64,000 nt of DNA from Roseococcus microcysteis (GTDB lineage Bacteria > Pseudomonadota > Alphaproteobacteria > Acetobacterales > Acetobacteraceae), in NCBI RefSeq assembly GCF_014764365.1, contig NZ_CP061718.1, forward strand, positions 3,550,501 through 3,614,500, written 5' to 3'. Positions 7,820-22,103 of this stretch are shown here, one piece after another. Every line of letters begins with the position of its first letter. The stretch's first letter is position 1. The notes beneath the pieces are model-generated. The model was not told the origin of the DNA and did not search any database. It saw nothing but the letters and a program-made list of their open reading frames with translations. The position numbers and the translations under genes are program-made.

Positions 7820-8560
7820 TCAGGCGGTCTCGCGTGCCGCGGCGATCCAGCCCTCGACATTGACAAGACGGCTGATGGGACCGAGGGCGCGGCGCAGCGC
7901 CTCCGGATCGGCTTCGGCCATCTGGGCGGTGCTCTCGATGCCGAGGTGCCGCAGGCGCAGCACCATGCCGGGCCCCATGCCGGGGAGAGGAAGGGCAGGG
8001 GGCGCGGCGGCCTCCGCGCCGTGAATCGCCTCCTCGGCCACCGCCATGGCGGGCGGCGCTTCCTCCGCGGGAGGGAGATCGGGCGGCGCATCCTGGGCCA
8101 TCACGGCAGCGAGGATCGGTGCGCCAGGCTTCTCTTCTTCGTCCGGCCCGAGGTCGCCCAGGGCGGCTTCGGCAAGCGGTTCGAGCTCGGGTTCCAGGGT
8201 CTCAGGTTCCAGGGCCTCGGGTTCCAGGGGCGTGGGCACCGCTTCGGGCGGCGCCGCCTCGGTGATGAGCTGGCCGAAGACGGTGCATTCCACCTCGGCT
8301 GGCGGGTGGATCTCGGCGGGCGTGGGTTCGTCGGGCAGGGGTGCGGCTTGGGGCGGCGGTAACGAGGTGGCCTCCGCCGCGATGGGCTCTTCGGGTGGCG
8401 CGGCGGGGGGCAGGCGGCGCAGCCGCGCGCGCTCCTCGCGCAGCTTCTCGCGCAGGCCCGCGCGCATCTGGCGCCGCGCGGCGCGGTTCGCCTGGATGGC
8501 CGCGACGCCGCCCAGGGAATGGGTTTCGCTCGTGCTGCCGGTCAGCCCGTCGGTCATCAT
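7820..8560 (-). CDS. Acidic Pro/Glu-rich protein with C-terminal helix-hairpin-helix-like domain
   Basis: A 246-residue protein not recognised as a known Gvp. Residues 1-50 are a basic Arg/Leu helix region (REKLREERARLRRLPP). Residues 50-185 are a low-complexity linker rich in Pro, Glu and Ala. The last 55 residues (LPGMGPGMVLRLRHLGIEST followed by AEADPEALRRAL) resemble the tandem helix-hairpin-helix motifs of DUF4332-like proteins. There is no signal peptide or membrane segment. A GAGGA site precedes the first ATG. It lies 64 bp downstream of gvpA on the same strand, so it may be co-transcribed with the shell gene and act in binding or scaffolding. Confidence 0.65.
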   Translation of the reverse strand: MMTDGLTGSTSETHSLGGVAAIQANRAARRQMRAGLREKLREERARLRRLPPAAPPEEPIAAEATSLPPPQAAPLPDEPTPAEIHPPAEVECTVFGQLITEAAPPEAVPTPLEPEALEPETLEPELEPLAEAALGDLGPDEEEKPGAPILAAVMAQDAPPDLPPAEEAPPAMAVAEEAIHGAEAAAPPALPLPGMGPGMVLRLRHLGIESTAQMAEADPEALRRALGPISRLVNVEGWIAAARETA

Positions 8561-8624: not shown

Positions 8625-8837
8625 TCAGGCCGCCGCGGGGTCGGTGGTCAGGCCCACGGCCTCGGCATACTTCAGGTAGGTCTCCACCGAGGCGACGACC
8701 GCGCGGATCTCGATCGCGATCAGCTCGATGCCGACCAGCGCCACGCGGATGAAGGCGTCCACGACGACGCCCTTGTCCAGGATGCGGTCGATCACTTCCG
8801 CCAGGCTGCTCGATGCCAGGCTCTTGTTGATGGTCAC
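8625..8837 (-). CDS. gvpA: Gas vesicle structural protein GvpA
   Basis: The 70-residue shell protein that polymerises into the ribbed wall of the vesicle. It carries the nearly invariant segments [20 protein letters not shown] (about 9-28) and a second block ending [16 protein letters not shown], typical of GvpA. The start is a GTG at 8837, preceded by GGAGG about 9 nt upstream. Other Gvp genes are on the opposite strand from 12373 on, so gvpA is separated from its assembly genes by the pigment and PYP genes. The 88-bp gap to the upstream CoA ligase could hold its own promoter. Confidence 0.98.
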
Positions 8838-8924
8838 GTATGGGTCCTCCGTCTTGGAACGAGAAATCGGTTGCGGTCATTCACGACCCTGGAAGACCCC
8901 GCCGGCGGCGGCTGACCTCCCTGG

Positions 8925-10184
8925 TCACGCCGCAGCATCGCGGCTGTTGGTAAAAACTCCCTCAAGCGCGACATCTTCTTCGTCACGACTCCAGTCGCGC
9001 GGCTTGCCCATCGCATTGCGCGGCAGGGCGGGGCCATGGGTGATGCGCACGGGCCGTTCGGGCGCGGACCAGTGGCTGCGGCAATGGGCCTCCACCTCCG
9101 CCACCAGCGCCGCGCCCTGCGCCGGCTGCGCGGGCACGAGGAAGGCCTTGAGCCGCGGCTCCGGCAGCGAGGTGTCCAGCCGCAGCGCGCAATCGGCCAC
9201 GCCTGGCAGCGCGCGCAGCCGCGCCTCCAGCGCGCGCGGGAAGATGTTGACGCCGCCAACCTGCACCGCCTCGTCCTTGCGGCCGTGCAGGTGCAGCGCG
9301 CGCGCCGCGGGCCAGGTGGCGCGGTCGGGCAGGGGGAATTCGCGCCCGGTCGCGCGTTCCACCACCGAGGCCTCTTCCTCCGCGCCGCCGGCGCACCAGC
9401 GTGGCAGCAGGTGGAAGGGGCCCTCGGAGGTGGTGCGGGTGGCGATGCCCGCGGTCTCGGAACTGCCGTAGATTTCCATGACCTCCGCGGCTCCCATCGC
9501 GCGCATGGCGACGTGCAGCGTCGCGGGCAGCGGCGCGGTGGAACTGGTTACGATCATCCCGGCCGGCAGCCCGCCCAGGCTGCGCTGCAGCACCAGCAGC
9601 GAGGTCGGGTGCGCCACCAGAAGATCGTCGCCGCGCAGCGCGCGCCGCAGTGCACCGGCCGAGAGGCCGCGCGCATCGAGCAGCGGCACGTCCAGCCGGC
9701 GCGGCAGCAGCACGGTGAAGAGGAAGCCATAGATGTGGTGCGGCGGCACCAGCGCCACCACGCGACCGCGCCCGGCGAAGCGCCCGGCGAAGAAGGCGAC
9801 CTCCTCCTCCAGCGTCGCGATGTCGTGCGTGCAGGGCTTGGGCGTGCCCGTGCTGCCCGAGGTGGTGAAGGTGAGGCGCGCAAATGCCTCCTGCTGCGCG
9901 CGGTGCACGAGGCGGGCCCAGCCGGCGATGGTCCGCTCCAGCAGCAGCATGTCCTCGATGCCGCTCTCGTGCAGGTGGAAGAAGGCGTTCACCGCCGCGC
10001 CGCAGGCCAGCAGCTCCAGGCTGTCCAGCGCCAGGCCCTCCGCGTCCAGCCGCTGCGTGCCATCCCAGCGCGCGACCTCCGCACCGTTCAGCCGCCGCCC
10101 GCCGGCATTCAGCTCGGCGGCGATCAGCGCGGCGACCAGGCGTTCCAGCGCGGGCAGGGGAAGGGGCGCGGCCATGCTGTCCAT
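8925..10184 (-). CDS. 4-coumarate--CoA ligase of the photoactive-yellow-protein activation family
   Basis: A 419-residue AMP-forming ligase that activates p-coumarate, the precursor of the PYP chromophore. It has the adenylate-forming loop TFTTSGSTGTPKP (about 105-117), YGSSETAG (239-246) and a late RNAMGKP with the catalytic-lysine region. It is shorter than plant 4CL (about 550) but fits the PYP-associated family (TIGR02372). The N-terminal 95 residues contain LALDSLELL, which resembles an acyl-carrier phosphopantetheine site. The ATG at 10184 has an AGGAGGA ribosome site. It is divergent from the pyp operon across a 156-bp gap, and that neighbourhood is the main reason for the specific call. 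Confidence 0.93.
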   Translation of the reverse strand: MDSMAAPLPLPALERLVAALIAAELNAGGRRLNGAEVARWDGTQRLDAEGLALDSLELLACGAAVNAFFHLHESGIEDMLLLERTIAGWARLVHRAQQEAFARLTFTTSGSTGTPKPCTHDIATLEEEVAFFAGRFAGRGRVVALVPPHHIYGFLFTVLLPRRLDVPLLDARGLSAGALRRALRGDDLLVAHPTSLLVLQRSLGGLPAGMIVTSSTAPLPATLHVAMRAMGAAEVMEIYGSSETAGIATRTTSEGPFHLLPRWCAGGAEEEASVVERATGREFPLPDRATWPAARALHLHGRKDEAVQVGGVNIFPRALEARLRALPGVADCALRLDTSLPEPRLKAFLVPAQPAQGAALVAEVEAHCRSHWSAPERPVRITHGPALPRNAMGKPRDWSRDEEDVALEGVFTNSRDAAA

Positions 10185-10230
10185 AACGGGGTCCTCCTGC
10201 GCATGACCTTGGCCGCCTGCCTGTTGACGC

Positions 10231-10264
10231 GCGGTTAAGGGGTGGCGCGCGCGGGCTTAACCGC
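10231..10264. promoter_or_regulatory. Inverted repeat in the divergent ligase/pyp-operon promoter region
   Basis: GCGGTTAAG (10231-10239) and CTTAACCGC (10256-10264) form a perfect 9-bp inverted repeat with a 16-bp spacer, midway between the two divergent starts. A TTGACG hexamer is at 10224-10229. The half-site GTTAAGG recurs at 12322-12328 before the gas-vesicle operon. This could be a shared regulator site for both transcription units. Confidence 0.4.
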
Positions 10265-10340
10265 ATCTTCACGGCGGCCATGCGACGAGTTGCGCGGCCC
10301 TGGCGCCCCGCGCGGTGCCAAAACACGGAGACCCTCCATC

Positions 10341-10823
10341 ATGAGTGCCGCCCACGCCGTGCCGCATGACGCGCCTGATCCCGCCCCGACGCGCGGGCTG
10401 AAGCGCAAGCCGCAATCGGTCGCGCTGCAGGTCAGTGGCGGCCGTCCGCTGCGCCTGCGCGGAGAGCTGCTGGCCGAGGGCAACAGCTGGGCCCCGGGCA
10501 CCGAGGCCTGGCACGAGATCGCCCTCTATCGCCGCGACCAGGAGGAGGTGGCGGTCGCGCTGCGAACCTTCCGCAAGGCCGAGGGCAGCACCGACATCCA
10601 CCGCGCCGAGCTCTTCCCCAACCTGGAGGAGGCCATGGCCTGGCTCATCGCCTTCGACCCGACGGCGGACCTGCAGGTGGACCTCGACTGCGCGGACCGC
10701 ACGCTCAGCACCGCCATGATCACGTTGCGCGCGGCCACGCTGCGCCAGCGGGCGGATGACATCACCCGTCAGTACCAATCGCTGCTGGGCGAGATGCTGC
10801 TGCACCTCGACCAGGGCGCCTGA
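10341..10823 (+). CDS. PYP-cluster paralog 1, unknown family
   Basis: A 160-residue soluble protein of unknown function. A loose N-terminus (1-25) leads to a core: RPLRLRGELL, then WHEIALYRRD, a VALRTFRKAEG strand, ELFPNLEEAMAWLIAFDP and a C-terminal helical part ending TRQYQSLLGEMLLHLDQ. The same order of motifs occurs in the products at 11232-11747 and 11744-12241, so the three are paralogs. It is the first gene of the operon that contains pyp, 28 bp upstream of it. It has no Cys, signal peptide or membrane segment. A role as a partner of PYP is inferred from position only. Confidence 0.8.
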   Translation: MSAAHAVPHDAPDPAPTRGLKRKPQSVALQVSGGRPLRLRGELLAEGNSWAPGTEAWHEIALYRRDQEEVAVALRTFRKAEGSTDIHRAELFPNLEEAMAWLIAFDPTADLQVDLDCADRTLSTAMITLRAATLRQRADDITRQYQSLLGEMLLHLDQGA

Positions 10824-10851
10824 ACCCCATCCACGCAAGGAACCCAGGACC

Positions 10852-11226
10852 ATGGAACTCATCAAGTTCGGCAATGACCATGTGGACAACCTCGTCTCGC
10901 AGGACCCCGCGCGCCTCGACCGCCTGCCCTTCGGCGCCATCCTCGTGGACCGCACGGGGCGGGTGCTGAAGTACAACAACATGCAGGCGGGCCTGACCGG
11001 CCGCACCTCGGGCGAGGTGGTGGGCAAGAACTTCTTCAACGACGTGGCCCCCTGCACCAAAGGCCATCTCTTCCAGGGCCGCTTCCAGCAGGGCGTGGCG
11101 CAGGGCTCGATCAACGCGATGTTCGAATACGCCTTCGACTACAAGATGCAGCCTTCCAAGGTGCGGGTGCACATGAAGTCCACCTCGATCGACGAGGGCG
11201 TCTGGATCTTCATCAAGCGCCTCTGA
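10852..11226 (+). CDS. pyp: Photoactive yellow protein (PYP), blue-light photoreceptor
   Basis: A 124-residue PAS-fold photoreceptor that binds p-coumarate as a thioester. Residues matching the Halorhodospira protein are Tyr41 (Tyr42), Thr49 (Thr50), Arg51 (Arg52) and the chromophore Cys68 (Cys69) in GKNFFNDVAPCTKG; FEYAFDYKMQPSKVRVHMK closes the domain. The position of Glu46, which hydrogen-bonds the chromophore, is Gln45 (YNNMQAGLTGR). In the model protein the E46Q change shifts absorption to longer wavelength and alters the photocycle, so altered colour is predicted. The gene sits between three paralogs of an unknown family, divergent from the ligase that makes its chromophore. Confidence 0.97.
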   Translation: MELIKFGNDHVDNLVSQDPARLDRLPFGAILVDRTGRVLKYNNMQAGLTGRTSGEVVGKNFFNDVAPCTKGHLFQGRFQQGVAQGSINAMFEYAFDYKMQPSKVRVHMKSTSIDEGVWIFIKRL

Positions 11227-11231
11227 CCGCC

Positions 11232-11747
11232 ATGCTCCAGGACCGCATCGCCATCCGGCTGACGCCGGAACCGCCGCCACCACCGCCCGAGCCCAGCGAT
11301 TTCCTGCACATGCTGCTGCCCCGGCACGGCCAGCGGCCGCTCGGCTTCGCCGGGCGCCTGCTGTTCAGCGCCGGCAATCGCGGCACGGCGCCGCGCTGCT
11401 GGCACGAGGTGGCGGTCTATGAGCGGGAGGATGGCGGGCTGGTCGCCGCCATCCGCCAGGGCGCCCGCCTCGATGGCCTGGCCGAGCGCAGCTGGGCCTT
11501 CCCCTGCGAAACCCCGGAGGAGGCGCGCGCCGCCTTCGCCGCGCACGACCCCCTGCCGCCCCTGCCGCTGGACGCGCTGACCGACGCGCCCAATGCGGGG
11601 CACAACGCGGCCGCGCTGCTGGAGGCCGCCGCCGCCCAGCGTCGCCTCTGGCACGCCCTGCTGGAGGCCGTGCTCGGCCCCGCGCCCCATCCGCACCACA
11701 CCCCCGCCGGCACCGCGCCCGGCCCTGACCGAGGAGACCACCCGTGA
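11232..11747 (+). CDS. PYP-cluster paralog 2, divergent
   Basis: A 171-residue protein, the most diverged of the three paralogs flanking pyp. It keeps RPLGFAGRLL, WHEVAVYERED and VAAIRQGARLDG, then EEARAAFAAHDP, but its C-terminal helix is shorter and it has Pro-rich ends (PEPPPPPPEPS near the start). It starts 5 bp after the pyp stop and its own stop overlaps the start of paralog 3, so these genes are one transcription unit with pyp. Function is unknown. Confidence 0.78.
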   Translation: MLQDRIAIRLTPEPPPPPPEPSDFLHMLLPRHGQRPLGFAGRLLFSAGNRGTAPRCWHEVAVYEREDGGLVAAIRQGARLDGLAERSWAFPCETPEEARAAFAAHDPLPPLPLDALTDAPNAGHNAAALLEAAAAQRRLWHALLEAVLGPAPHPHHTPAGTAPGPDRGDHP

Positions 11748-12241
11748 ACGTCATGAACGTCTATGAACCCGTGGGCGAGCGCCCCACCATGCCCATCGCC
11801 GCCGATCCGCGGCTCTCGGCCCGTGTCTCGGGCGGGAGCATGTTCACCCTGCGAAAGTCGGGGGCGCGGCCCATCTCCTTCTCCGGCCGGCAGCTCGGCT
11901 TCCAGAGCAACTACCGCATGGGCACGCCGCTCTGGCACGAGCTGAACCTCTACCAGACCGAGGATGGCCGTTTCGTCGCCGATATCCGCGTCTTCCAGAA
12001 GGGCGAGGGCGCGCGCGACCAGTTCCACGTGGCCGTGGTGGACAGCCTGGACGAGGCGCTGGCCTTCTTCGAGGGCTATGACCCGCGCATGGACCTGACG
12101 GCCGGCTTCTCGCTGGACGATCCCGACCTTTCGCCCGCCGAGCTGATCGTCCACGCCGCCAAGCTGAAGTACGAGATCAACGAGACGGTGAACCAGTACA
12201 AGGCCGTGCTCTCGGCCTTCCTGCACGAGCTGAACGGCTGA
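11744..12241 (+). CDS. PYP-cluster paralog 3
   Basis: A 165-residue protein with the family motifs RPISFSGRQLGF, WHELNLYQTEDG, ADIRVFQKGEGARD and LDEALAFFEGYDP, and a C-terminal helix YEINETVNQYKAVLSAFLHE that matches the end of paralog 1. The start is a GTG that overlaps the previous stop (GTGA), with GAGGAG upstream; an ATG nine bases later is possible. It is the last gene before a strong terminator, so it closes the pyp operon. No known domain is recognised. Confidence 0.8.
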   Translation: MNVMNVYEPVGERPTMPIAADPRLSARVSGGSMFTLRKSGARPISFSGRQLGFQSNYRMGTPLWHELNLYQTEDGRFVADIRVFQKGEGARDQFHVAVVDSLDEALAFFEGYDPRMDLTAGFSLDDPDLSPAELIVHAAKLKYEINETVNQYKAVLSAFLHELNG

Positions 12242-12267
12242 CGCGGTCCGCATCGGCGCGCGCCTGG

Positions 12268-12295
12268 GGGCACCGGTTCGCCGGTGCCCTTTTTT
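12268..12295 (+). terminator. Rho-independent terminator of the pyp operon
   Basis: GGGCACCGG, loop TTCG, CCGGTGCCC, then six T: a textbook intrinsic terminator 26 bp after the stop of paralog 3. It separates the pyp operon from the gas-vesicle operon, which therefore needs its own promoter in 12296-12372. Confidence 0.93.
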
Positions 12296-12321
12296 GTGGC
12301 CGGGCGTCAGCTTCACCGGCC

Positions 12322-12353
12322 GTTAAGGAGCGCGCTGCTAGGTCTTCTGCTAG
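12322..12353 (+). promoter_or_regulatory. Candidate control region of the gas-vesicle operon
   Basis: In the 77 bp between the terminator and the first gene there is GTTAAGG (12322-12328), identical to the half-site in the divergent pyp promoter region. Two direct copies of CTGCTAG follow (12335-12341 and 12347-12353), twelve bases apart, about one helical turn. No clear sigma-70 boxes are visible, so an activator or alternative sigma factor is possible. Confidence 0.35.
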
Positions 12354-12372
12354 CAGGACAGGACGTTCCGCC

Positions 12373-13089
12373 ATGGAGCTCGGCACCCGCCGAATCAGAT
12401 CCGCCGGACATGGCACCGGCAGCGTGGAGGTGACCCTCCCGACCCGGTTCCGGGAGTTGGTGGGCGTGCCGCTGCGCGTGCGCCTGCGCGATGGGCTGCG
12501 GCCCGAGATCGTGCTGCAACCCGAGATCCAGGCCGCGCATGCCGCGCTGGAGCGTCTCTGGACGGCGCTCGCGCAGGCCACGGGGCTGGTGGCGCCGCCC
12601 CCCTTTCCCGCCGCGGATTTCGTCTTCGCCCTCTTCGCCCCCTGCGAGGATGCGTCGGAGGCCCCCTTGCGCCCCGGGATCGCCTGGTCCGACGCACAGG
12701 CGCTCGCCGGCGCCGCGCCGCATTCGCCGGTGGTGCTGGCGCGGCTGCTGCGGGCCCTGGGCGCCCGGCTCGCGGCGCCGCTGGGTGTCGCGTCGGCCCA
12801 GGCCTATGGCTTCGGCGCCGCCCTGGCCTTCGCCGCCACGGGCCAGGTGACGCGCGCCACCGAGCAGCAGGAATGCGACATCGCCGGCGCGGTGCTGGGG
12901 GCCGCGCCTGGCCTCGCCTTCAACGAGGCGGGCGAGGATGCCTGGGCACCGGCCCTCTGGGCCGCGCTGGCGCCGGGCTTCGCCCGCATCACCGACATTC
13001 ACCGGCAATGGACGGCGGAGCCCGCCCTGCTGGCCCGGTCGCGCGCCGCCTGGCGCCGCGGCGTCACCCTCGAACTCGGCGGAGCCTGA
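12373..13089 (+). CDS. Unknown protein, first gene of the gas-vesicle operon, with AbrB-like N-terminal strand region
   Basis: A 238-residue protein of unknown function. Residues 1-48 (GSVEVTLPTRFRELVGVPLR and the following RVRLRDGLRPEIVLQP) look like a swapped-hairpin AbrB-type element, with a V-x-LP-x-R-F core. The remaining 190 residues are Ala/Leu-rich and helical with no transmembrane segment. It starts 132 bp after the pyp operon and ends 5 bp before gvpN, so it is the promoter-proximal gene of the operon. It could be a DNA-binding regulator or an assembly factor; neither is shown. Confidence 0.6.
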   Translation: MELGTRRIRSAGHGTGSVEVTLPTRFRELVGVPLRVRLRDGLRPEIVLQPEIQAAHAALERLWTALAQATGLVAPPPFPAADFVFALFAPCEDASEAPLRPGIAWSDAQALAGAAPHSPVVLARLLRALGARLAAPLGVASAQAYGFGAALAFAATGQVTRATEQQECDIAGAVLGAAPGLAFNEAGEDAWAPALWAALAPGFARITDIHRQWTAEPALLARSRAAWRRGVTLELGGA

Positions 13090-13094
13090 GCGCC

Positions 13095-14117
13095 ATGTCC
13101 CTGCGTCCTTCCCCGCTTGTCCGGCCGCGCGCCGTGATCCCGCCGCCACCGCGTGATGCGCTCGAAAATGAGAGCGAGACCACGCTGCAACTGCGCGCGG
13201 GTGCGGAATTCGTCAGCACCGACGCCACCGAGGCGCTGGTGCAGCGCAGCCTGCGCTACCTCGAAGGCGGCTATCCGGTGCATTTCCGTGGCCCCGCCGG
13301 CAGCGGCAAGACCACGCTCTCGCTGCACCTCGCCGAACGGCTGGAACGCCCCGTGGTGCTGCTGGTGGGGGATGACAGCTTTGACACGCGCCGCCTGGTG
13401 GGCGGCGAAAGCGGCACGCGAAGCCGCCGCGTCGTGGACCGCTACATCACCAGCGTGACCAAGGTGGAGAGCGAGAGCGAACCCATGTGGCTCGATCGCG
13501 CGCTCACCGTCGCCTGCACCGAGGGCTGCACGCTGGTCTATGACGAATTCAACCGCGCGCCCCCCGCCGCCAACAACGTGCTGCTGACGGTGCTGGAAGA
13601 GCGCATGCTGGTGCTGCCCAAGGCCGGCCGCGGCGAGACCTACACGCGCGTGCATCCCGAATTCCGCGCCATCTTCACCTCCAACCCGGTGGACCATGTG
13701 GGCGCGCATGAGGCGCAGAATGCCCTGCTGGACCGCATGGTGACGCTCGACCTCGACGGCTTCGACCGCGGCACGGAAGTGGCCGTCACCGCCGCGCGCT
13801 CGGGCCTGCCTTTGGCCGATGCGGCGGCCATCGTGGACATGGTGCGCGACTTCCGCCGCTCGCGCGAATACACGCAGCGCCCCACGCTGCGCGCCAGCCT
13901 GATGATCGCGCGGATGACGGCGGTGCAGGGCCTCGCCGTCAGCGCCGATGATCCGGACTTCGTGCAGCTCTGCCTCGACCTGCTGGGCAGCCGGCTCAAG
14001 CCCGGGGTGGGCGGCCAGCCCGATCCGCGCCATCGGCAGATGCTCATCAAGCTCATCGAGCATTTCTGCCCGCCCGCGACGACGCGGCGCGATGCGCGGT
14101 TCGGGGGTGTGGCATGA
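13095..14117 (+). CDS. gvpN: Gas vesicle protein GvpN, AAA-type ATPase
   Basis: A 340-residue MoxR-like AAA ATPase needed for vesicle growth beyond the small biconical stage in other systems. Walker A is GPAGSGKT (66-73), Walker B is TLVYDEFNRAP (about 144-154), followed by a sensor-1 IFTSNPVDHVG. The length is typical. The ATG at 13095 follows the previous stop by five bases; the stop overlaps the next ATG (ATGA), which shows translational coupling. Confidence 0.97.
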   Translation: MSLRPSPLVRPRAVIPPPPRDALENESETTLQLRAGAEFVSTDATEALVQRSLRYLEGGYPVHFRGPAGSGKTTLSLHLAERLERPVVLLVGDDSFDTRRLVGGESGTRSRRVVDRYITSVTKVESESEPMWLDRALTVACTEGCTLVYDEFNRAPPAANNVLLTVLEERMLVLPKAGRGETYTRVHPEFRAIFTSNPVDHVGAHEAQNALLDRMVTLDLDGFDRGTEVAVTAARSGLPLADAAAIVDMVRDFRRSREYTQRPTLRASLMIARMTAVQGLAVSADDPDFVQLCLDLLGSRLKPGVGGQPDPRHRQMLIKLIEHFCPPATTRRDARFGGVA

Positions 14118-14413
14118 GGCCCCGCCCGCTGCGCGTGAACGCCCGGCGCGGCACGCGCCTCGCCCGCCATGACACGCATGAATTCCGGCTGGAGGCGGTG
14201 GCCGCGGAATTCGCGCTGAACGCGCAGCGCCGTGCGCGACTGACCCGCCAGATCGAATTGCTGGAACGCCAGCGCGCGGGGGCCATGAGCAGCCTCGCGC
14301 AGGTGGAGGCCCGCATGGCCGTCCTGCAGCGGCGGATGCGCGGCGCCGAGGAGGCCCCGGCGGTCGCCGCGCCCGCGCCCACGCACCGCCCCCGCATCAT
14401 CCTCGAATACTGA
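14114..14413 (+). CDS. Small basic coiled-coil protein in the gas-vesicle operon
   Basis: A 99-residue protein with an Arg-rich N-terminus (residues 1-20) and a heptad-like helix across 25-75 (NAQRRARLTRQIELLERQRA), ending in a Pro/Ala tail. It overlaps gvpN by 4 nt and precedes gvpO. Its size and coiled coil recall small accessory proteins such as GvpV of enterobacterial clusters, but similarity is too weak for a name. Confidence 0.65.
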   Translation: MRPRPLRVNARRGTRLARHDTHEFRLEAVAAEFALNAQRRARLTRQIELLERQRAGAMSSLAQVEARMAVLQRRMRGAEEAPAVAAPAPTHRPRIILEY

Positions 14414-14427
14414 CCCGGAGCACGCCC

Positions 14428-14682
14428 ATGGACCTCACCGAGATCATCGAGCGCACCAAGCGCGACATGGCGGCCATCACGGGGCTGCCGCCCGACACGG
14501 TCAGCCGCCTCGATCCCGGCGAGCATGGCTGGACCATCGGCATCGACATGATCGAGCACAAATCCATCCCGCGCACCCAGGACCTGATCGCGAGTTTCGA
14601 GGTGCTGCTGGACCATGAGGGCAAGATCCAGCGCTGGCGCCGCACGGGCCGCTTCCACCGCGCCCAGGGCGGGGAGGGATAG
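14428..14682 (+). CDS. gvpO: Gas vesicle protein GvpO
   Basis: An 84-residue soluble GvpO-family protein, an accessory factor of vesicle formation. The family pattern is clear: AAITGLPPDTVSRLD, GWTIGIDMIEHKSIPRTQDL, then EVLLDHEGKIQRWRRTGRF. It is at the short end for the family, lacking the variable N-terminal extension. It starts 14 bp after the coiled-coil gene and is followed by a gvpJ-like gene after 3 bp. Confidence 0.9.
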   Translation: MDLTEIIERTKRDMAAITGLPPDTVSRLDPGEHGWTIGIDMIEHKSIPRTQDLIASFEVLLDHEGKIQRWRRTGRFHRAQGGEG

Positions 14683-14685
14683 GCC

Positions 14686-14988
14686 ATGGCCATGCAGCAT
14701 TCCGTGGCCGGCTCGGGCCTCGCTGACATCCTGGAACGCATCCTGGACAAGGGCATCGTGGTGGCGGGCGACATCTCGGTCAGCCTGGTGGGCGTCGAGC
14801 TGCTGACGGTGCGGCTGCGCCTCGTCATCGCCTCGGTGGACCGGGCGCTGGAAATGGGCATCCGCTGGTGGGAGGCCGATGCGGCGCTGTCGCAGGATGC
14901 GGCGAAGCTGCGCGCGGAGAACGCGGCGCTGACGGAGCGGCTGGCGCGCCTCGAAGCGGCGCTGCTGCCGGAGGGCGCGCGGCCATGA
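14686..14988 (+). CDS. gvpJ: Gas vesicle protein GvpJ-like (GvpA paralog)
   Basis: A 100-residue GvpA-superfamily minor shell protein. Its core, GLADILERILDKGIVVAGDI then VELLTVRLRLVIASVDRALE, is followed by GIRWWEADAALS, which marks the GvpJ branch, and by a Lys/Glu coiled-coil tail. In other organisms GvpJ is a minor component that influences vesicle shape or tip formation. The stop overlaps the next start by 4 nt. Confidence 0.9.
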   Translation: MAMQHSVAGSGLADILERILDKGIVVAGDISVSLVGVELLTVRLRLVIASVDRALEMGIRWWEADAALSQDAAKLRAENAALTERLARLEAALLPEGARP

Positions 14989-15200
14989 GGCGGCCCGTCT
15001 CCCTCTCGCGCCGGCTCAGCGAACGCGCCCGTGCCGTCGTGCCGCAAAACGCCACGCAGGACCTCCCGCGCGTGGATGGCGATGCCCAGGCCAGCCTGGT
15101 CATCGGCTACTCGGTGCGTGTGGGGCTGGAGGACGGGACCGAGCACCGCCAGGACGCCGCGCTGGAAATCCGCCTGCCGCGCGCGAGGACCAGGGAATGA
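14985..15200 (+). CDS. Small unknown protein in the gas-vesicle operon
   Basis: A 71-residue protein with a basic start (MRRPVSLSRRLSERARAVV) and a likely beta-rich end (SLVIGYSVRVGLEDGTE). It overlaps both neighbours by 4 nt (gvpJ-like upstream, gvpF/L downstream), which argues that it is a real gene. I do not recognise the family. Confidence 0.65.
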   Translation: MRRPVSLSRRLSERARAVVPQNATQDLPRVDGDAQASLVIGYSVRVGLEDGTEHRQDAALEIRLPRARTRE

Positions 15201-15952
15201 GCACGGGCCTCTACATCTACGGCATCGCGCCGGGCGCGCTCCCGGCCGACGGGTTGGGCCCGGGCCTCGGCGGTGGCGAGGTGACGGCGCTGCACGCCGC
15301 GGGCTTCACCGCCCTGCTGGGCGCGGCCCCGCCCGCGCCCATCGAGGCCACGCGCCGCTTCATGCTGGCCCACACCGCCGTGCTCGAACGCGCCATGCGC
15401 GCGACTGACATCCTACCCATGCGTTTCGGCACCGTGGCACCGGACGAGGCCGCGCTGCATCGCTGCCTCGTCGCCCACGCGCCCGCCTTCCGCGAGGCCC
15501 TGGAGGGCATCGCAGGCCGTGTCGAACTCGGCGTGAAGGCGCAATGGCATGAGGGGCTGATCTGGCGCGAGATCGTGGAGGGCGATGCCGAACTCCGCGC
15601 CCTGCGCGACCGGCTCAAGACCCGCCCCGCGCAAGAGACCTATTACGAGCGCATCGAACTCGGTCGCCGCGTGGAGGCCGCGCTCGCCCGCCGGCGCGAG
15701 GCCGATGGCGCGGCCATCGCCGCCACCCTCGCCCCGCTCGCCGAGCGCGAGGTGGAACTGCGCAGCGTGGAGGAGGACATGATCCTCAGCCGCGCCTTCC
15801 TGGTGCGGCGCGAGGCGGAGGCCCAGTTCGACGCCGGCATGGAGGCGCTGGCCCAGCGCTTCGGCGAGCGCGTCACCTTCAAATATGTCGGCCCCGTGCC
15901 CCCCTACAATTTCGTGACCCTCCGCGCCGATTGGCTGCGGGAGGCGGCATGA
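15197..15952 (+). CDS. Gas vesicle protein of the GvpL/GvpF family (first copy)
   Basis: A 251-residue GvpF/L-type protein. The N-terminal GLYIYGIAPGALP, the central ILPMRFGTV and the C-terminal KYVGPVPPYNFVTL are family landmarks. Members act as accessory proteins that bind GvpA and are thought to keep it soluble or nucleate assembly. It is one of three such genes here. It is coupled to the unknown gene upstream and to gvpG downstream by 4-nt overlaps. Confidence 0.93.
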   Translation: MSTGLYIYGIAPGALPADGLGPGLGGGEVTALHAAGFTALLGAAPPAPIEATRRFMLAHTAVLERAMRATDILPMRFGTVAPDEAALHRCLVAHAPAFREALEGIAGRVELGVKAQWHEGLIWREIVEGDAELRALRDRLKTRPAQETYYERIELGRRVEAALARRREADGAAIAATLAPLAEREVELRSVEEDMILSRAFLVRREAEAQFDAGMEALAQRFGERVTFKYVGPVPPYNFVTLRADWLREAA

Positions 15953-16203
15953 GCGTGCTCGGCACCCTGCTTGGCCTGCCCGTGATGGGCCCGCTGGGCG
16001 GCGTCTCCTGGATCGCGGGCAAGCTGCGCGAGGCGGTGCTGGCCGAGGCGCTGGACCCCGCGCGCATCGAGGCGGGGCTGCGAAAGCTCGAAAAGCGGCT
16101 CGATGCCGGCGAAATCACCGAGGAGGAATACGACGTGGCCGAGGCCGAGCTGCTCGCGGAACTGCGCGCCATCCGCGCCGCCCTGGCGGAGGGCGCGCCA
16201 TGA
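15949..16203 (+). CDS. gvpG: Gas vesicle protein GvpG
   Basis: An 84-residue GvpG. The motifs LLGLPVMGPLGGVSWIAGKL and GEITEEEYDVAEAELLAEL define the family. The product is a small mostly helical accessory factor that works with GvpF/L proteins. The ATG at 15949 was taken from the overlap with the previous stop, in keeping with the 4-nt overlaps throughout this operon. Confidence 0.93.
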   Translation: MSVLGTLLGLPVMGPLGGVSWIAGKLREAVLAEALDPARIEAGLRKLEKRLDAGEITEEEYDVAEAELLAELRAIRAALAEGAP

Positions 16204-17183
16204 CCCCGCAACTGACCCTGCTGGGCGTGGCCGAGGCTGCCATGGCGCCCGCGCTGGAAACCGCCCTGGCCGCCCTGCCTGGCCCGGCCTTGCGGCTGTG
16301 CCGGGTGGGTGGGCTGCTCGGCGTGGCGCAGGGCGCGCCGCGCACCGCCTTCCCGGCCGGCCGCAGCGCGATGTTCAAGCGCTTGCACGCCGTGCAGCGG
16401 CGGCTGGAAATCGCCTGCCAGATGGGCCCCTTCCTGCCGGCGGACCCCGCCGCCGCCCTGTGTCCGGCCAGCGAGTTCGCGGCCTTGATCGAGGCCGCCG
16501 CGCCGGCCCTCGGCGCCGCGCTGGCGCGCGAGGGCGGGCGCCACCAATGGCAGGTCACGCTGCGCTGGGCGCCGGAGGCCATCCTGGCGGCGCGGCGGGA
16601 CGCGGTGCGCCGCCTCGCCGCCAGTGAGCGCCCGAAGGATGTGGCCGATGCCGTCGCCGCCATCCTGGCCGAGGCGCGGACCGAGCGCGCCGCGGCCCTG
16701 CGCGCCGCGCTGCTGCCCCTCGTTGTCGCCCTCTCGCCCGAGGATGTCTCGGGGGGCGAGGGCGAGACCTCGCTGACCATCCTGGTGCCCGCGGGGGGCG
16801 AGGCCGCCATCGAGGCCGGGCTCGGCGCCATGCCGCCCGCGCTGACCCAGGGCATGTCCTGTGACCTGACGGGCCCGCTGCCGCCGCTTTCCTTCAGCGC
16901 CTTCCGCGTGGTGGAGGAGGAGGCCGGCCGGCTCCACGGCGCCTGGCGCCTGCTGGGCCTGCCTGCCCGCGCCGATGGCCGGTCGCTCGCGCGGCGCTGG
17001 CGGGAGGTGGCGGGCGCGCTGCATCCCGACCGTGCCGGCGGCAGCGCCACCGGCTTCGCGGCCGCCAGCGAGGCCCATCGGCTGCTGCGCGGCGCCTTGC
17101 CGGCGGATGGCGAAGGCCTCGCGCAGCAGGATCTCGCCACCCGCGCCGCACGGCGCATCATCCTGCCGGAGCTCGCCGCATGA
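16200..17183 (+). CDS. GvpL/GvpF-family protein with a C-terminal J-domain
   Basis: A 327-residue fusion. Residues 1-240 are a diverged GvpF/L domain, recognised by the late LTGPLPPLSFSAFRV block. Residues about 247-300 form a J-domain: AWRLLGLPARADGRSLARRW, then the invariant HPD tripeptide at 275-277 (GALHPDRAGG) and FAAASEAHRLL. J-domains stimulate DnaK/Hsp70, so the protein probably recruits DnaK to gas-vesicle assembly intermediates. It overlaps gvpG and the next gvpF/L gene by 4 nt. Confidence 0.85.
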   Translation: MTPQLTLLGVAEAAMAPALETALAALPGPALRLCRVGGLLGVAQGAPRTAFPAGRSAMFKRLHAVQRRLEIACQMGPFLPADPAAALCPASEFAALIEAAAPALGAALAREGGRHQWQVTLRWAPEAILAARRDAVRRLAASERPKDVADAVAAILAEARTERAAALRAALLPLVVALSPEDVSGGEGETSLTILVPAGGEAAIEAGLGAMPPALTQGMSCDLTGPLPPLSFSAFRVVEEEAGRLHGAWRLLGLPARADGRSLARRWREVAGALHPDRAGGSATGFAAASEAHRLLRGALPADGEGLAQQDLATRAARRIILPELAA

Positions 17184-17935
17184 GCCTCGCCCTTTATGCC
17201 TATGCCGCGCTTCCCGCGGGGGCGCCCGTCCCGGACATGCCGGGGCTGGAGGGGGCGGGGCCGCTCGCCCTGGTCACGGAGGGCGCGGTGGCCGCCCTGG
17301 TCAGCCCCGTGCCCGCCGCCTGGTTCGCCGAGGGCGGGCTGTCCAGCGATCCGGAATGGGTCTCCCGCCAGGCGCTGCGGCACCACGCGGTCTGCGGCGC
17401 GCTGGCGGGCATGGCGCTGCCGCTCGCCTTTGGCGCGGTGTTTTCCAGCGAGGCGCCGCTGCGGCTCTGGCTGGCCGAGCGCGCGGGCCCGCTCGCCGCC
17501 TCGCTGGATCGCGCCCGGGGTTGCGCCGAATGGACGCTGCTGCTGCGCGAGGATGCGCCGCGGCTGGAGGCTTGGCTCGCCGCCCATGACACGGAGCTCG
17601 CGCGGCTGAGCGGGGCGGCCGCGCTGGCGGGCCCCGGCACGCGCTTCCTGCTGGAGCGCCGGCTGGAACGCGCGCGGGAGGAGGCGCGGGCCCGCCACCT
17701 CGATGCGGCCGCCACCCGTCTCCAGGTCGCGCTGGCCGATCATGCGCGCGCGCTCACCCCCGCCCGCACCCGCGCCGGGATGCTGGGCGTGAACGTGCTC
17801 CTGCCCGGCGCCCCGCCCCCGTCGCTGGAGAACATGGCGAACGAGCTGGACGCGACAGGTGTCTCCCTCACCCTCAGCGGCCCATGGCCGCCCTACGCCT
17901 TTGCGCGGGAGGCGCTGGCCCATGCCCATGGCTGA
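17180..17935 (+). CDS. Gas vesicle protein of the GvpL/GvpF family (third copy)
   Basis: A 251-residue GvpF/L protein with N-terminal ALYAYAALPAGAP, a central ALPLAFGAVFSS and the terminal LTLSGPWPPYAF. It differs from the copy at 15197, so the two are not a recent duplication. It overlaps the J-domain gene by 4 nt and the following GvpA-family gene by 14 nt. Confidence 0.92.
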   Translation: MSLALYAYAALPAGAPVPDMPGLEGAGPLALVTEGAVAALVSPVPAAWFAEGGLSSDPEWVSRQALRHHAVCGALAGMALPLAFGAVFSSEAPLRLWLAERAGPLAASLDRARGCAEWTLLLREDAPRLEAWLAAHDTELARLSGAAALAGPGTRFLLERRLERAREEARARHLDAAATRLQVALADHARALTPARTRAGMLGVNVLLPGAPPPSLENMANELDATGVSLTLSGPWPPYAFAREALAHAHG

Positions 17936-18134
17936 ACCGCGCGGGCTGACGCCCCAGCCGCAGGCGCTTGTGGATGTGTTGGACCGGCTGCTGGACACCG
18001 GCGTGGTGCTGGACGGGCAGCTCGTGATTTCCGTGGCGGGCGTGGACCTGGTCCATCTCGGGCTGCGGGCGCTGCTGGCCTCGGTCGAGACCGCCGCGCG
18101 CCTGGCCCAGTCTCGGCCGGAGACCCAGCCATGA
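17922..18134 (+). CDS. GvpA-superfamily minor protein (GvpS/GvpM-like)
   Basis: A 70-residue GvpA-like protein: ALVDVLDRLLDTGVVLDGQL and VDLVHLGLRALLASVETAAR keep the alpha-beta-beta-alpha pattern but with many changes from GvpA, so it is a minor component, probably of the GvpS/M branch. The start at 17922 lies inside the preceding gene; a second ATG at 17928 is also possible. Its stop overlaps the start of gvpK. Confidence 0.85.
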   Translation: MPMAEPRGLTPQPQALVDVLDRLLDTGVVLDGQLVISVAGVDLVHLGLRALLASVETAARLAQSRPETQP

Positions 18135-18451
18135 TCGCCATGGCCGATGACGCCCAGCACGCGCTGGCCGCCGCCGCGGCCCCCGTGGCCATGCGGCTCG
18201 CCCTCGCCCCGGAGAACATGGAGCAGGACCTCTCCCGCCTCGTGCTGACGCTGGTGGAATTCCTCCGCCGGCTGCTGGAGGCGCAGGCGGTGCGGCGCAT
18301 GGAAGGCGGCGGGCTGGATGCCGAGGAGGCCGAACGCCTCGGCCTTGGCCTGATGCGCGCGCGCGAGGCGGTGGTGAGCCTCTGCGACAAGCTCGGCATC
18401 GCGCCGGAAACCCTCAACCTCGATCTCGGCCCACTCGGCCGGCTCATGTGA
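18131..18451 (+). CDS. gvpK: Gas vesicle protein GvpK
   Basis: A 106-residue GvpK. The family core is visible: NMEQDLSRLVLTLVEFLRRL, EAQAVRRMEGG, LDAEEAERLGLGLM and the ending LNLDLGPLGRLM. GvpK is an accessory protein present in most vesicle clusters. The start overlaps the preceding stop; the next gene begins 25 bp downstream with its own strong ribosome site. Confidence 0.95.
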   Translation: MIAMADDAQHALAAAAAPVAMRLALAPENMEQDLSRLVLTLVEFLRRLLEAQAVRRMEGGGLDAEEAERLGLGLMRAREAVVSLCDKLGIAPETLNLDLGPLGRLM

Positions 18452-18476
18452 TCCGCGCCCGCGCGGAAAGGAGGAC

Positions 18477-20618
18477 ATGATGTCCCGGAACCAGTTCACG
18501 GCCCTCATGGCCCTGGCCGTCGCGGCGCTGCTGGCGGCGGGCGCCGCGCTGTGGCTCGGCACGCGACCCGTGATGCCGCTGCCTGCGCCAGCGCCGCTCC
18601 AGCCCGAATGGGAGGCGGCGCTGGCGCAGCTCGACCGCGCGCAGTCCGGTGAGGCCACGGCCTTGCCCGAGCTCCGCCGCCGCCTGCTGGCCCTGGCCGA
18701 GTTGCAGGACCGCGCGGGCGAGCCGCTGCGGGTGGAGGCCATGTTGCAGGGGCTTGCCGGCCGCATCGAGGGCACGCTCGCCACGCTGCCCGCCGGCACG
18801 CCGCCCGCTCCGCTGGAGGCGGCCCTGCCGCTGGCGGCGCTGGGCATGGGCGCGCTCGGGCTGCTCGCCTTGCTGCTGGCCGCGCGCCGCCGCCCGCCCG
18901 CCGAGGCTGGCCCGCCCGCCTGGAGCGAGAGCCTGCGCGAGGAAATCCAGGCGGCGCTGGGTTCCGCCCGCCAGGCGCAGGAGGAGGTGGCGCGCGCCAC
19001 GGCCCGCGCCGGCGACCAGCAGGACCGCCTGGCGCATCGTGTGCGGCTTCTCTCCGAACGGCTGGAGACCCTGCCGAGCGGCGAGGCCGATCCGCGCCTC
19101 GCTACCCTGCTGGACCGCATGGAGACGCTGGGCGCCACGCTCGGCCAACTCGCCGGGCGCGCCGAGGCGGCGCTGGAGCGTGAGGCGCGCGGTCTGGAGC
19201 GGCTGGAGGTGGCGGTGGACAACCTGCACGCCGCGCCGGGCGCCCTGGCCGATCCCGCGCCGCTGGCCGCGCTGCTGCCCGCCTTCGAGAATGCCGCCGC
19301 CGAATGCCGCGCCACCGCCCCCCTGCTGGGTGAGCTGGCCTCGCTGGCGCAGCAGGCCATGACCCGCGTGACCGATGAGGCCGTGGTGCGGATCGGCGTG
19401 GCGGCGGAGCGCGTTTCCACCGCCGGCCAGGAGGCGCTCGCCGAGGCGCAATCCGCCCTGGCGGCGGCCGCGGAGCGGGTGTCGGCCCTGACCCCCGCCG
19501 AGCCGCCCGCCCTGCCGCTGGAACGGCTGGAGGCCTTGGCCGCCCGGCTGGAAGAGGGTGCGGCCACGGCGCAGCCCCTGGCGGGGCTCCCGGCCGAGGT
19601 GGCGCGCGTCGCGGCCCTGGCGGCCGAGATGGACCGCGTGGCGCAGGGCCTCGGCTCGGTCATCCCGGTGGCGGACCTCGCCGCGCAGGTGGACCGCGTC
19701 ACCGCCGCCGCGATCCATGTGCAGAGCGCGGCCGAACGGCTGGAAAGCGGGCTGCCCGTGCTGGAACTGACCACCCAGATCGCGCGCATGGACGCCGCGG
19801 CCGGGGCGGTGGAGCAGGCCGCGGGCAAGATCCCCGTCACCGAGATGGCGGGTCAGCTCGACCGCCTGACCACCGTGGTCGCCGCGCAGCTGGCCCAGGT
19901 CACGGGCGGCGTCGCGGCCCTGGAGCAAGGGGCGCGGCAGATGGTCCATGCCTTGCCGCTCACGGCGCTGGACGCCCAGGTGGCCCGGGTGGAGGCCGTC
20001 GCCATTGCGCTGGAGGAGGGCGCCCAGCATTTGGGCGAGGCCCTGCCGCTGGAGAGCCTCGCCAACCACGTCACGCGGCTGGAGGCCCTGGTGGAGGGCG
20101 GCGCCCGGCTGGGCGAGACCGCGCAGGAACTGGCGGGCGCCGCGGCCGCGGTGCGCGAGGCCGGGGCGGCGCTGGAGACCTCCGCCCGCGCCATGCCCGA
20201 TGCGCGCGCCGCCCTGGGCCCGATCATCGCCGAGATCCAGGCCGCGTTGCCGGCGCGGGCCGAACCCCCTTCGCCCCGTCGCGCCCCCAGCCTGCCGGAG
20301 CCGCGGGGTTCCATCGCCGCCTCGCTGGTGGCCGAGCTCAGCCCCCGGCACGCGCCGCTGTCGGGTGCGCTGCGCCGGGTGGGGCAGGTGGAGGCCGAGG
20401 TCGCGGAACTGCTCGGCGAGGCCGAGAGCCTGGCCGAGCAGGCCATCCAGCGCCCGGGCGAGGCCTGGCCCGCCCCGGTGTCGGGCCGGGTGGGCGAGGT
20501 GCTGGGCAGCATCCAGTCCACCATAGACCGCCTGCAGACGGTGGCGACCGCGCTGGCCCTGGCCGCCGATGCGCCGGGGCAGGAGCCCAGGGACAGCGAG
20601 GCGCGCGGCGCGGCCTGA
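18477..20618 (+). CDS. Large membrane-anchored coiled-coil protein at the end of the gas-vesicle operon
   Basis: A 713-residue protein of unknown family. A hydrophobic segment at about 8-28 and a second at about 116-138 bracket a roughly 85-residue loop. The remaining 570 residues are Ala/Glu/Leu-rich helix, with recurring units of about 35-40 residues in which a short LPxxxLAxQVxRV-like phrase repeats (VIPVADLAAQVDRV, KIPVTEMAGQLDRL, ALPLTALDAQVARV, ALPLESLANHVTRL). The layout resembles a chemoreceptor or tether, but no HAMP or signalling hairpin is seen. AGGAGG precedes the ATG pair. A tether between vesicles and membrane is a guess. Confidence 0.7.
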   Translation: MMSRNQFTALMALAVAALLAAGAALWLGTRPVMPLPAPAPLQPEWEAALAQLDRAQSGEATALPELRRRLLALAELQDRAGEPLRVEAMLQGLAGRIEGTLATLPAGTPPAPLEAALPLAALGMGALGLLALLLAARRRPPAEAGPPAWSESLREEIQAALGSARQAQEEVARATARAGDQQDRLAHRVRLLSERLETLPSGEADPRLATLLDRMETLGATLGQLAGRAEAALEREARGLERLEVAVDNLHAAPGALADPAPLAALLPAFENAAAECRATAPLLGELASLAQQAMTRVTDEAVVRIGVAAERVSTAGQEALAEAQSALAAAAERVSALTPAEPPALPLERLEALAARLEEGAATAQPLAGLPAEVARVAALAAEMDRVAQGLGSVIPVADLAAQVDRVTAAAIHVQSAAERLESGLPVLELTTQIARMDAAAGAVEQAAGKIPVTEMAGQLDRLTTVVAAQLAQVTGGVAALEQGARQMVHALPLTALDAQVARVEAVAIALEEGAQHLGEALPLESLANHVTRLEALVEGGARLGETAQELAGAAAAVREAGAALETSARAMPDARAALGPIIAEIQAALPARAEPPSPRRAPSLPEPRGSIAASLVAELSPRHAPLSGALRRVGQVEAEVAELLGEAESLAEQAIQRPGEAWPAPVSGRVGEVLGSIQSTIDRLQTVATALALAADAPGQEPRDSEARGAA

Positions 20619-20632
20619 GCGCGCCGCGCCTC
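20598..20632. terminator. Bidirectional hairpin between convergent genes
   Basis: GAGGCGCG with GGCGCG pairs with CGCGCC and GCGCCTC (one bulged base), spanning the end of the coiled-coil gene and the stop of the convergent selO gene, only 12 bp apart. There is no T-run, so termination by this hairpin alone is uncertain. Confidence 0.45.
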
Positions 20633-22103
20633 AGGTGCCGCAGAAGGTCTGGTAGACGCGGTCGCTGGGCTCGGGCGGCAGGGCGTATCGGGCGGGCGGT
20701 GCCTCGAAGGGACGAAGCAGCACGGCCAGCAGCGCGTCGAAGGGGCCGAGGTCGAGGTCGCGCGTCGCGGCCTCCAGCGCCTCCTCCACCAGGTGGTTGC
20801 GCGGGATCACCTGCGGGTTCGCGGCGGCCAGGCGTTCGGCCACGCCGGGTTCGGTGGAGATGCGCGCCCGCCAATCCTTGGCCCAGGGCAGGATGGCGTC
20901 GGTGCCGGTGAATTGCGCGGCGAGCGGGGCGTCATCGCCGGCAGCGGCCTGGGTCAGCGCGCGGAAGCTGTTGGTGAAGTCGGCGCGGCTGGCCTTCATG
21001 GCATCGAGCAGGCCGAGGGCCAGCGCGTCATCGCCCTCGCGCGGCGTGCCGATGCCGAGCTTGGCCAGCAGCCCCGCCCGGTAATGTTCCTCGAAGCGCG
21101 GGCCGAAGGTGGCGATGGCGGATTTCGCCCAGTCCAGGGCAGCATCCTCATTCGTGTCGAACAACGGCAGCATGGCCTCGGCCAGCCGCGCCAGGTTCCA
21201 CTGCATCACCCGCGGCTGGTTGCCATAGGCGTAGCGGCCGCCATGGTCGATGGAACTGAACACCGTCTCCGGGTCATAGGCGTCCATGAAGGCGCAGGGG
21301 CCGTAGTCAATCGTCTCGCCCGAGATGGTGGTGTTGTCGGTGTTCATCACGCCATGGATGAAGCCCAGCAGCATCCAGCGCGAAACGAGCGCGGCTTGGC
21401 GTTCCAGCACGCCTTCATACAACGCGCGGTAGGGGTGTTCGGCCTGCGCGGCCTCGGGGTCATGACGAGCGATGGCGTGGTCGGCCAGCAGGCGCAGCCC
21501 CTCCGCATCGCCGCGCGCGGCGAAGAACTGGAAGCTGCCCACGCGGATATGGCTGGCGGCGACGCGCGTCAGCACCGCGCCGGGCAGGGGGCCTGGTTCG
21601 CGCAGCACCATCTCGCCGGTCAGTGCGGCCGCCAGCGTGCGCGTGCTGGGCACGCCCAGCGCCGTCATCGCCTCGCTGATGAGGTATTCGCGCAGCACGG
21701 GGCCAAGGGCGGCGCGGCCATCGGCGCGGCGTGAGAAGGGCGTGGGGCCCGAGCCCTTCAGCTGGATGTCGCGGCGGCGCCCCTCGCGGTCCAGCACCTC
21801 GCCCAGCAGGATGGCGCGGCCATCGCCCAGCTGCGGCGTGAAGCCGCCGAACTGGTGGCCGGCATAGGCCATGGCGATGGGCTCGGCATCGGCGGGCAGG
21901 GCGCTGCCGGCGAAGATGGCGGCACCGGCCGGGCTGTTCAGCGCCTGCGCGTCCAGCCCCAGCTCGGCCGCCAGCGGCGCGTTCAGCCGCAAGAGTCGTG
22001 GCCCGGTGACTGGCGTGGGCTCCACGCGCGCGAAAAATCGCTCCGGCAGCTTTGCATAGGAGTGATCGAAGCCGAAGCGGATGTCGCTGAGCGTGTCTGG
22101 CAT
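20631..22103 (-). CDS. selO: SelO/YdiU-family protein adenylyltransferase (AMPylator)
   Basis: A 490-residue pseudokinase of the SelO family, which transfers AMP from ATP to proteins in redox control. Landmarks are [20 protein letters not shown] and the [20 protein letters not shown] segment with the nucleotide-binding lysine and arginines. [20 protein letters not shown], with catalytic Asn and Asp residues, follows, then [13 protein letters not shown]. The C-terminus VYQTFCGT keeps a Cys where eukaryotic forms carry selenocysteine. It is convergent with the gas-vesicle operon and unrelated to it by function. Confidence 0.96.

Follow-up and report, generated by a model that had tools for sequence, protein, structure and literature searches.

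A photoactive yellow protein gene co-encoded with three EXLDI-like proteins beside gas-vesicle genes in Roseococcus: a candidate blue-light signalling module

In a 64,000-nucleotide stretch of the Roseococcus microcysteis genome (hereafter the window; contig NZ_CP061718.1, positions 3,550,501 to 3,614,500), the gene for a photoactive yellow protein (PYP), pyp, is flanked by genes for three undescribed proteins, which we call U1, U2 and U3 (collectively U), and lies close to a p-coumarate-CoA ligase-like gene (pcl-like), the gas-vesicle shell gene gvpA and a gas-vesicle (gvp) operon of 13 open reading frames (ORFs). U is encoded in the same unit as pyp, follows pyp across lineages and occurs in only one PYP clade. 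Judging from gene content and order, we read the locus, with moderate confidence, as a blue-light signalling module attached to a gas-vesicle set, with U as the partner of PYP.

The pairing of PYP with gas vesicles is already published and thus not new. A pyp gene near a gas-vesicle cluster is described for Loktanella sp. SE-62 and Rhodobacter capsulatus SB1003 (PMC3646047, citing Kyndt et al. 2004), which bears out the Rhodobacter neighbourhood mentioned in a preliminary description of this DNA, and a table in PMC6273459 connects gas vesicles and cell buoyancy to the PYPs of certain genera. Our locus shares this neighbourhood but differs from those of SB1003 and SE-62 in its host, a member of the Acetobacteraceae, and in having pyp flanked by U1-U3. 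The new element is therefore the clade-specific set of PYP-associated EXLDI-like proteins, which the preliminary description had left out although they are the most informative part of the locus, together with a hairpin that lies between the pyp unit and the gvp operon. The host contig (4.2 Mb, the single contig of a complete genome) is Roseococcus-like; the earlier assignment to probably Acetobacteraceae agrees with the 99% identical PYPs in two genomes of the same genus (G124 and G044), and a scan by name recovers the PYPs of R. suduntuyensis DSM 19979 and R. thiosulfatophilus RB-3 at 99% identity.

Distribution and kinship of the U proteins

Gene order around pyp, a comparison proposed in the preliminary description, was examined in the best 80 of 275 PYP relatives (up to 10 kb on each side, less on short contigs), with gvp genes sought in those stretches by tblastn using the window proteins. 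U is present in 11/80 loci (L034-L040, L045, L046, L047 and L055). All nine loci with gvp genes in the stretch have U neighbours (9/9), and no gvp-linked PYP locus without U was seen among the 80. Of the 71 loci without gvp in the stretch, two carry U, both from Sphingomonadales (L046 and L047). A whole-genome check of six of these 71 (L041-L044, L046 and L047; some are metagenome-assembled genomes, MAGs) for PF00741, the family that includes gvpA, was negative throughout. Since U stays with pyp in two Sphingomonadales without PF00741, the distribution suggests that U is tied to PYP rather than to vesicles.

Across 385 alphaproteobacterial genomes, PF00741 is found in 5, PYP in 9 (E <=1e-12) and U in 2, and the two U-bearing genomes (the query and G745) are the same two that have both PYP and gvp. 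The U search scored the best few candidates of each genome (9 here) and may overlook diverged members. The G745 locus runs U, two ORFs without a Pfam match, pyp, a pcl-like gene, gvpA, a gene similar to hhh (the gvpA neighbour in the window; Table 1), gvpN, gvpO and more gvp genes. The three gvp-bearing genomes of the class without a PYP match have no U match either, and the gvp stretches of G489, G732 and G713 (the last on a contig of only 3.6 kb) contain neither U nor PYP. Within the family, U occurs in 3/168 genomes, all Roseococcus, and PYP in 16/200 (E 1e-6), while a three-row U profile searched against 299 genomes of the phylum retrieves, besides the query, a single distant protein (L115).

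In a tree of 83 PYPs (125 columns; G519 and G753 left out), 14 U-linked rows and the U-less L041-L044 form a group of 18 that is split from the 65 others with a support of 100/95. On this topology, U is a trait of one PYP clade. The order within the group is unsure because of the 125 columns and the long branches of G745 and L055. Most simply, U would be ancestral in the clade, lost in the lineages of L041-L043 and L044, which are also without gvp, and kept in the two Sphingomonadales.

The three U proteins are paralogous, with U2 and U3 being 27% and 30% identical to U1, and none of the members scanned exceeds a cut-off in Pfam, NCBIfam or PHROGs. Few amino-acid changes separate them from their R. 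suduntuyensis counterparts: 3 non-synonymous against 13 synonymous changes in U1, 2 against 7 in U2 and 1 against 4 in U3. Because the resulting ratios of non-synonymous to synonymous rates (dN/dS) are 0.07, 0.10 and 0.08, respectively, U1-U3 behave as real genes, with the proviso that the counts are small. An AlphaFold2 model of U3 from a 22-row alignment predicts five strands, short helices and a long C-terminal helix at a mean predicted local distance difference test score (pLDDT) of 87.9 (119/165 residues >=90; from residue 31 onwards, averages over ten residues are 92-98).

The core of U is EXLDI-like. TIGR04342, the NCBIfam model of EXLDI (function unknown; cut-off 32 bits), finds its best U in that of G745 (E 7e-4, 19.9 bits) and also matches L115 (E 1.7e-5), in both cases below the cut-off; among 22 U members, one is matched (E 0.019). 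L115 and U3 point to the same four hypothetical plasmid proteins, for U3 mostly weakly (E 0.03-9), and L115 together with these four aligns with the U profile over 84 columns (hhalign probability 98.3%, E 2.5e-14). As this core match is significant and the TIGR04342 cut-off is unreached, we regard U as remotely related to the EXLDI proteins and not as a member of that family: the core is homologous, whereas U adds the C-terminal helix and is tied to pyp. EXLDI-like proteins are encoded on plasmids of Halomonas, Shewanella, E. coli and Ahniella (L157 3503-4306, L158 3524-4318, L159 3590-4357 and L160 4040-4450), three of them with ~150 extra N-terminal residues. U1 itself has no plasmid match at E 1e-3, and the TIGR04342 model has none in 150 genomes of the phylum, where the control also matched nowhere. 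The modelled sheet-plus-helix core bears a weak likeness in fold, with no match in sequence, to WGR and Pur-alpha domains, a hint too weak for assigning a function. Against the PDB, nothing convincing was found by sequence (best E 0.098) and nothing at E <=0.001 by fold (best 0.043); BFVD gave one match, to an unnamed protein (E 3.6e-5). The sole paper in the open literature containing the word EXLDI is unrelated by its title. In L045, a third U-type gene (6894-7439) lies past the pcl-like gene, and its product is basic (isoelectric point 9.3), unlike other U proteins.

Sensor, chromophore supply and transcription units

The window PYP passes the TIGR02373 cut-off (163 bits versus 143.05) and has Tyr42, Gln46, Thr50, Arg52 and Cys69 in Halorhodospira halophila numbering, so that the chromophore residues Cys69 and Tyr42 are present. 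Set beside the single-domain PYP of H. halophila, it is 49% identical over 124 residues to the type found in the latter's relatives and keeps Tyr42, Thr50, Arg52 and Cys69 but not position 46, and its operon partners are U1-U3, whereas pyp is accompanied by pCL and TAL there (PMC12826048). Gln46 in place of Glu46 is found in the window and both Roseococcus relatives, or 3/84 readable PYP rows (84 of 85 rows kept; G519 left out), and, by PDB alignment, in the entry group of 1ot6. According to PMC12826048, it occurs in 2.6% of PYP homologues and its properties remain to be studied; because it is a known minority form, PYP membership stands despite the absence of Glu46. In H. halophila, the E46Q mutant has red-shifted absorbance and a faster photocycle (PMC9664959) as well as a smaller structural change (PMC12826048), and by analogy the Roseococcus sensor may be tuned differently.

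Several other PYP loci show features of their own. The PYP of Sphingomonas sp. PAMC 26621 (L047 10001-10375) has Phe at position 42, and between pyp and U this locus and L046 have a similar small ORF (L047 10405-10785; L046 10335-10781). L038 has tandem PYP genes (6220 and 6906; 79 and 72% identical to that of the window), followed by U2, U3 and gvpA. G006, from the same family, has four PYP genes (contigs C75, C95 and C107; L029-L031), two of which are divergent neighbours, and the stretches read around them contain neither U nor gvp. On plasmids, PYP searches returned 12 records, all at <60% identity.

The ligase matches TIGR02372 nearly end to end (E 5.6e-93), below the cut-off of 334.7 bits, and for this reason we keep to the strict wording pcl-like. 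One aromatic lyase match was found in the window genome; it lies beside urocanase and looks like a histidine lyase, and no tyrosine lyase was recognised in that genome. With this as the sole recognised aromatic lyase, p-coumarate probably comes from outside. Uptake of p-coumarate is also raised as an option in PMC12826048, and PMC9664959 mentions an earlier proposal of histidine lyase as an alternative source.

The pyp unit is tightly packed (U1-pyp 28 bp, pyp-U2 5 bp, U2-U3 -4 bp) and is separated from the gvp operon by a gap containing the hairpin at 12266-12291. The gvp operon had been described as following pyp directly: its 13 same-strand ORFs are there, but U2, U3 and this hairpin intervene. 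The hairpin (fold z -2.41) is kept in both Roseococcus relatives, and we call it terminator-like from its position, strength and conservation; terminator-like sites in general are no commoner than chance across the scanned region (3 found versus 3.2 expected). Because this conserved hairpin separates the two units, control of the gvp operon by simple read-through from the pyp unit appears unlikely. The divergent gap between the pcl-like gene and U1 contains the window's only GTTAA-N8-30-TTAAC inverted repeat. We rate it a weak operator candidate: two Roseococcus genomes retain it, their spacer being one base longer (17 rather than 16), and a search of L036-L040 did not recover it. A CtrA site was considered for this TTAA repeat and dropped, its spacing being unlike the CtrA consensus. 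No sigma-70-type promoter was found in the scanned region. Just 5' of the 13-ORF operon, 12330-12353 contains a repeated CTGCTAG and the palindrome CTGCTAGCAG, which are also present in both Roseococcus relatives.

Gas-vesicle genes and the loss of gvpA in R. thiosulfatophilus

Profile searches confirmed the families behind the earlier grouping of pyp, a pcl-like ligase and gvpA beside a gas-vesicle operon (Table 1). The operon ORFs (12373-20618) overlap or lie <=25 bp apart; 9/13 match gas-vesicle families (GvpN, GvpO, GvpG, GvpK, three GvpL/GvpF and two PF00741), and 12373-13089, 14114-14413, 14985-15200 and 18477-20618 match no family at the thresholds used in Pfam and NCBIfam. The three PF00741 genes of the window genome all lie within the window, the divergent gvpA being one of them and the second being, we presume, of the gvpJ/S/M type. 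By family, the set is as full as previously claimed, with GvpN and counterparts of gvpA, F, G, J, K, L, M and O, the eight genes given as essential in PMC3646047. The GvpL/GvpF protein of 16200-17183 has a C-terminal HPD motif (DnaJ E 0.015, under the cut-off) and a 48% identical copy in L037. The last ORF of the operon is 96% identical in both Roseococcus relatives. Beyond the operon, the next gene (20631..22103, minus strand) is presumably selO.

Table 1. Features of the pyp and gas-vesicle locus (window coordinates)
Feature	Position	Strand	Basis or remark
hhh, 246 aa, gvpA neighbour	7820..8560	-	N-terminal helix, acidic low-confidence stretch, C-terminal helix-hairpin-helix-like part
gvpA, gas-vesicle shell protein, GTG start	8625..8837	-	PF00741, 57.4 bits
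pcl-like p-coumarate-CoA ligase	8925..10184	-	TIGR02372 311.7 bits; PF00501 and PF13193 over cut-offs
Inverted repeat GCGGTTAAG/CTTAACCGC, divergent pcl-U1 gap	10231..10264	.	Weak operator candidate
U1, 160 aa, undescribed EXLDI-like protein	10341..10823	+	Paralogue of U2 and U3
pyp, photoactive yellow protein	10852..11226	+	TIGR02373 over cut-off
U2, 171 aa, most diverged U paralogue	11232..11747	+	Paralogue comparison
U3, 165 aa, GTG start	11744..12241	+	EXLDI-like core and 34-residue C-terminal helix
Terminator-like hairpin ending U1-pyp-U2-U3	12266..12291	+	11-pair stem, then T run
238-aa gvp-linked ORF, no family	12373..13089	+	Homologue beside gvpN in G732
gvpN	13095..14117	+	TIGR02640 324.7 bits, over cut-off
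99-aa ORF in gvp operon, no family	14114..14413	+	Family searches
gvpO	14428..14682	+	PF05800 67.4 bits
Second PF00741 gene	14686..14988	+	PF00741 60.4 bits
71-aa ORF, no family over cut-off	14985..15200	+	Family searches
gvpF/L, first copy	15197..15952	+	PF06386 219 bits
gvpG	15949..16203	+	PF05120 72.1 bits
gvpF/L with J-domain-like C-terminus	16200..17183	+	PF06386 52.5 bits
gvpF/L, third copy	17180..17935	+	PF06386 133.9 bits
Third PF00741 gene	17859..18134	+	54.7 bits; start uncertain, GTG 17859 or ATG near 17922-17928
gvpK	18131..18451	+	PF05121 101.1 bits
713-aa ORF, last in operon, no family	18477..20618	+	Hydrophobic N-terminus by eye

Copies of gvpA that are 88-98% identical adjoin pyp in L034 and L036-L040, and in the latter five relatives gvpA lies on the same strand, ~90-240 bp 3' of U3. 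Among the loci read, a divergent gvpA is found only in the window, R. suduntuyensis and L045. The layout had earlier been called distinct; in Roseococcus, the divergent gvpA is probably a rearrangement, given the same-strand position after U3 in L036-L040. Counting the window and G745, the gvp-linked loci number 11, with R. thiosulfatophilus lacking gvpA; in 9/10 of the others (among which the window and R. suduntuyensis are near copies), gvpA is <= ~2.5 kb from pyp, and only in L055 is the presumed gvpA farther off, at ~11 kb. The adjoining hhh matches PF14520 below the cut-off (E 2.8e-4), and its structure model, built without an alignment, has a mean pLDDT of 67.2. Homologues of hhh accompany gvpA or gvpN in several relatives, and one lies by pyp in L044 (~10684), though that genome is without PF00741.

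Reading frames are open in both the window and R. suduntuyensis, most of the genes being 94-100% identical between them. R. thiosulfatophilus RB-3 instead shows a loss: its locus has no gvpA or hhh, ~39 pcl codons are left, and pyp is interrupted by a stop in place of the codon for Tyr42. U1-U3 and the accessory gvp operon are still open, and the genome has two accessory PF00741 genes only. Outside the stop, its pyp differs from that of the window by 9 synonymous and 0 non-synonymous changes, and for this reason the loss looks recent. The joint failure of sensor, ligase and shell gene fits one functional unit, with the caveat that a single deletion beside pyp accounts for most of it and that the stop could be a draft base error. 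A fourth genome of the genus (G175) has neither a PYP match nor PF00741.

Proposed signalling route and alternatives

In the route that we propose, the pcl-like enzyme would activate p-coumarate for loading on Cys69 of PYP, light excitation would alter how PYP contacts the U proteins encoded with it, and the resulting state of PYP and U would set the vesicle amount, with light acting in either direction, most plausibly through the expression or assembly of gvpA. The shell gene is the most plausible target because it, rather than the accessory operon, usually adjoins pyp, U and pcl. Light control of buoyancy, as advanced in the preliminary description, is still the obvious hypothesis and agrees with the linkage; the control itself we infer from gene content. 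As a wider and more tentative proposal, U1-U3 may be the dedicated signal partners of one lineage of single-domain PYPs, forming an EXLDI-like light module that would switch gas vesicles in Acetobacteraceae, Sphingomonadales and Parvularculaceae and serve another output where vesicles are absent.

Several points weigh against a PYP-U module acting on vesicles. The other 69/80 PYP loci are without U, so PYP elsewhere works without it; the query is itself one of the genomes behind the result for the class, and the loci share ancestry, and for both reasons we give no weight to Fisher tests on these counts. The pcl-like gene falls short of its model's cut-off, and no PYP-U fusion was found in 166 loci. 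The hairpin makes it less likely that pyp and the gvp operon are simply co-transcribed. In Rhodobacter capsulatus, gas-vesicle genes are affected by CtrA and FnrL (PMC7232146), so light need not be the sole input. We rejected charge complementarity as evidence for PYP-U binding, as L041-L043, sister PYPs without U, are likewise basic and the L055 PYP is acidic.

The constant company of U and gvp (9/9 gvp-linked PYP loci read), together with the position of gvpA after U3 on the same strand in L036-L040, would also be expected if U1-U3 were vesicle assembly or shell-modifying proteins that merely adjoin pyp, with PYP using another partner. We consider this unlikely, since U is kept with pyp in the two genomes without PF00741 (one of them a MAG) and no U match turned up in the three gvp-bearing genomes of the class without a PYP match. 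It is likewise conceivable, if doubtful in our judgement, that the genes are a co-inherited set for life in lit water, with a PYP-U output elsewhere (cyclic-di-GMP, motility) and vesicles that PYP-U does not control. The hairpin between the two units would suit such an arrangement, as would L047, a locus without gvp whose pyp and U have an aromatic lyase, a GAF/PAS ORF and a GGDEF-EAL ORF in their neighbourhood, and the GGDEF/EAL genes in many predicted pyp operons (PMC12826048); however, the gvp association holds in several orders, gvpA itself is a close neighbour, and family scans of 20 window proteins from around pyp revealed no cyclic-di-GMP gene. The broken locus of R. thiosulfatophilus, the absence of PYP and PF00741 matches in G175 and the lack of a recognised tyrosine lyase in the window genome raise the further question of whether the module is decaying or already non-functional in the genus. 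We hold this to be very improbable, as the genes are open in the window and R. suduntuyensis and dN/dS is low in the five genes measured.

Among 984 PYP homologues and 113 predicted operons, PMC12826048 (2025) acknowledges the signal output of single-domain PYP as a gap. Its main text contains no 'gvp', and 'gas' only within an author's name; 'gas vesicle' is likewise absent from the text of PMC9664959, and no paper on photoactive yellow protein and Roseococcus was found in the open literature, from which subscription papers are mostly missing. The U proteins offer a concrete partner candidate for PYP signalling, one that follows a single PYP clade even into two vesicle-less genomes, and they make the PYP signalling question testable in this lineage. 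For such work, the locus provides both a natural Gln46 PYP and a natural loss in R. thiosulfatophilus.

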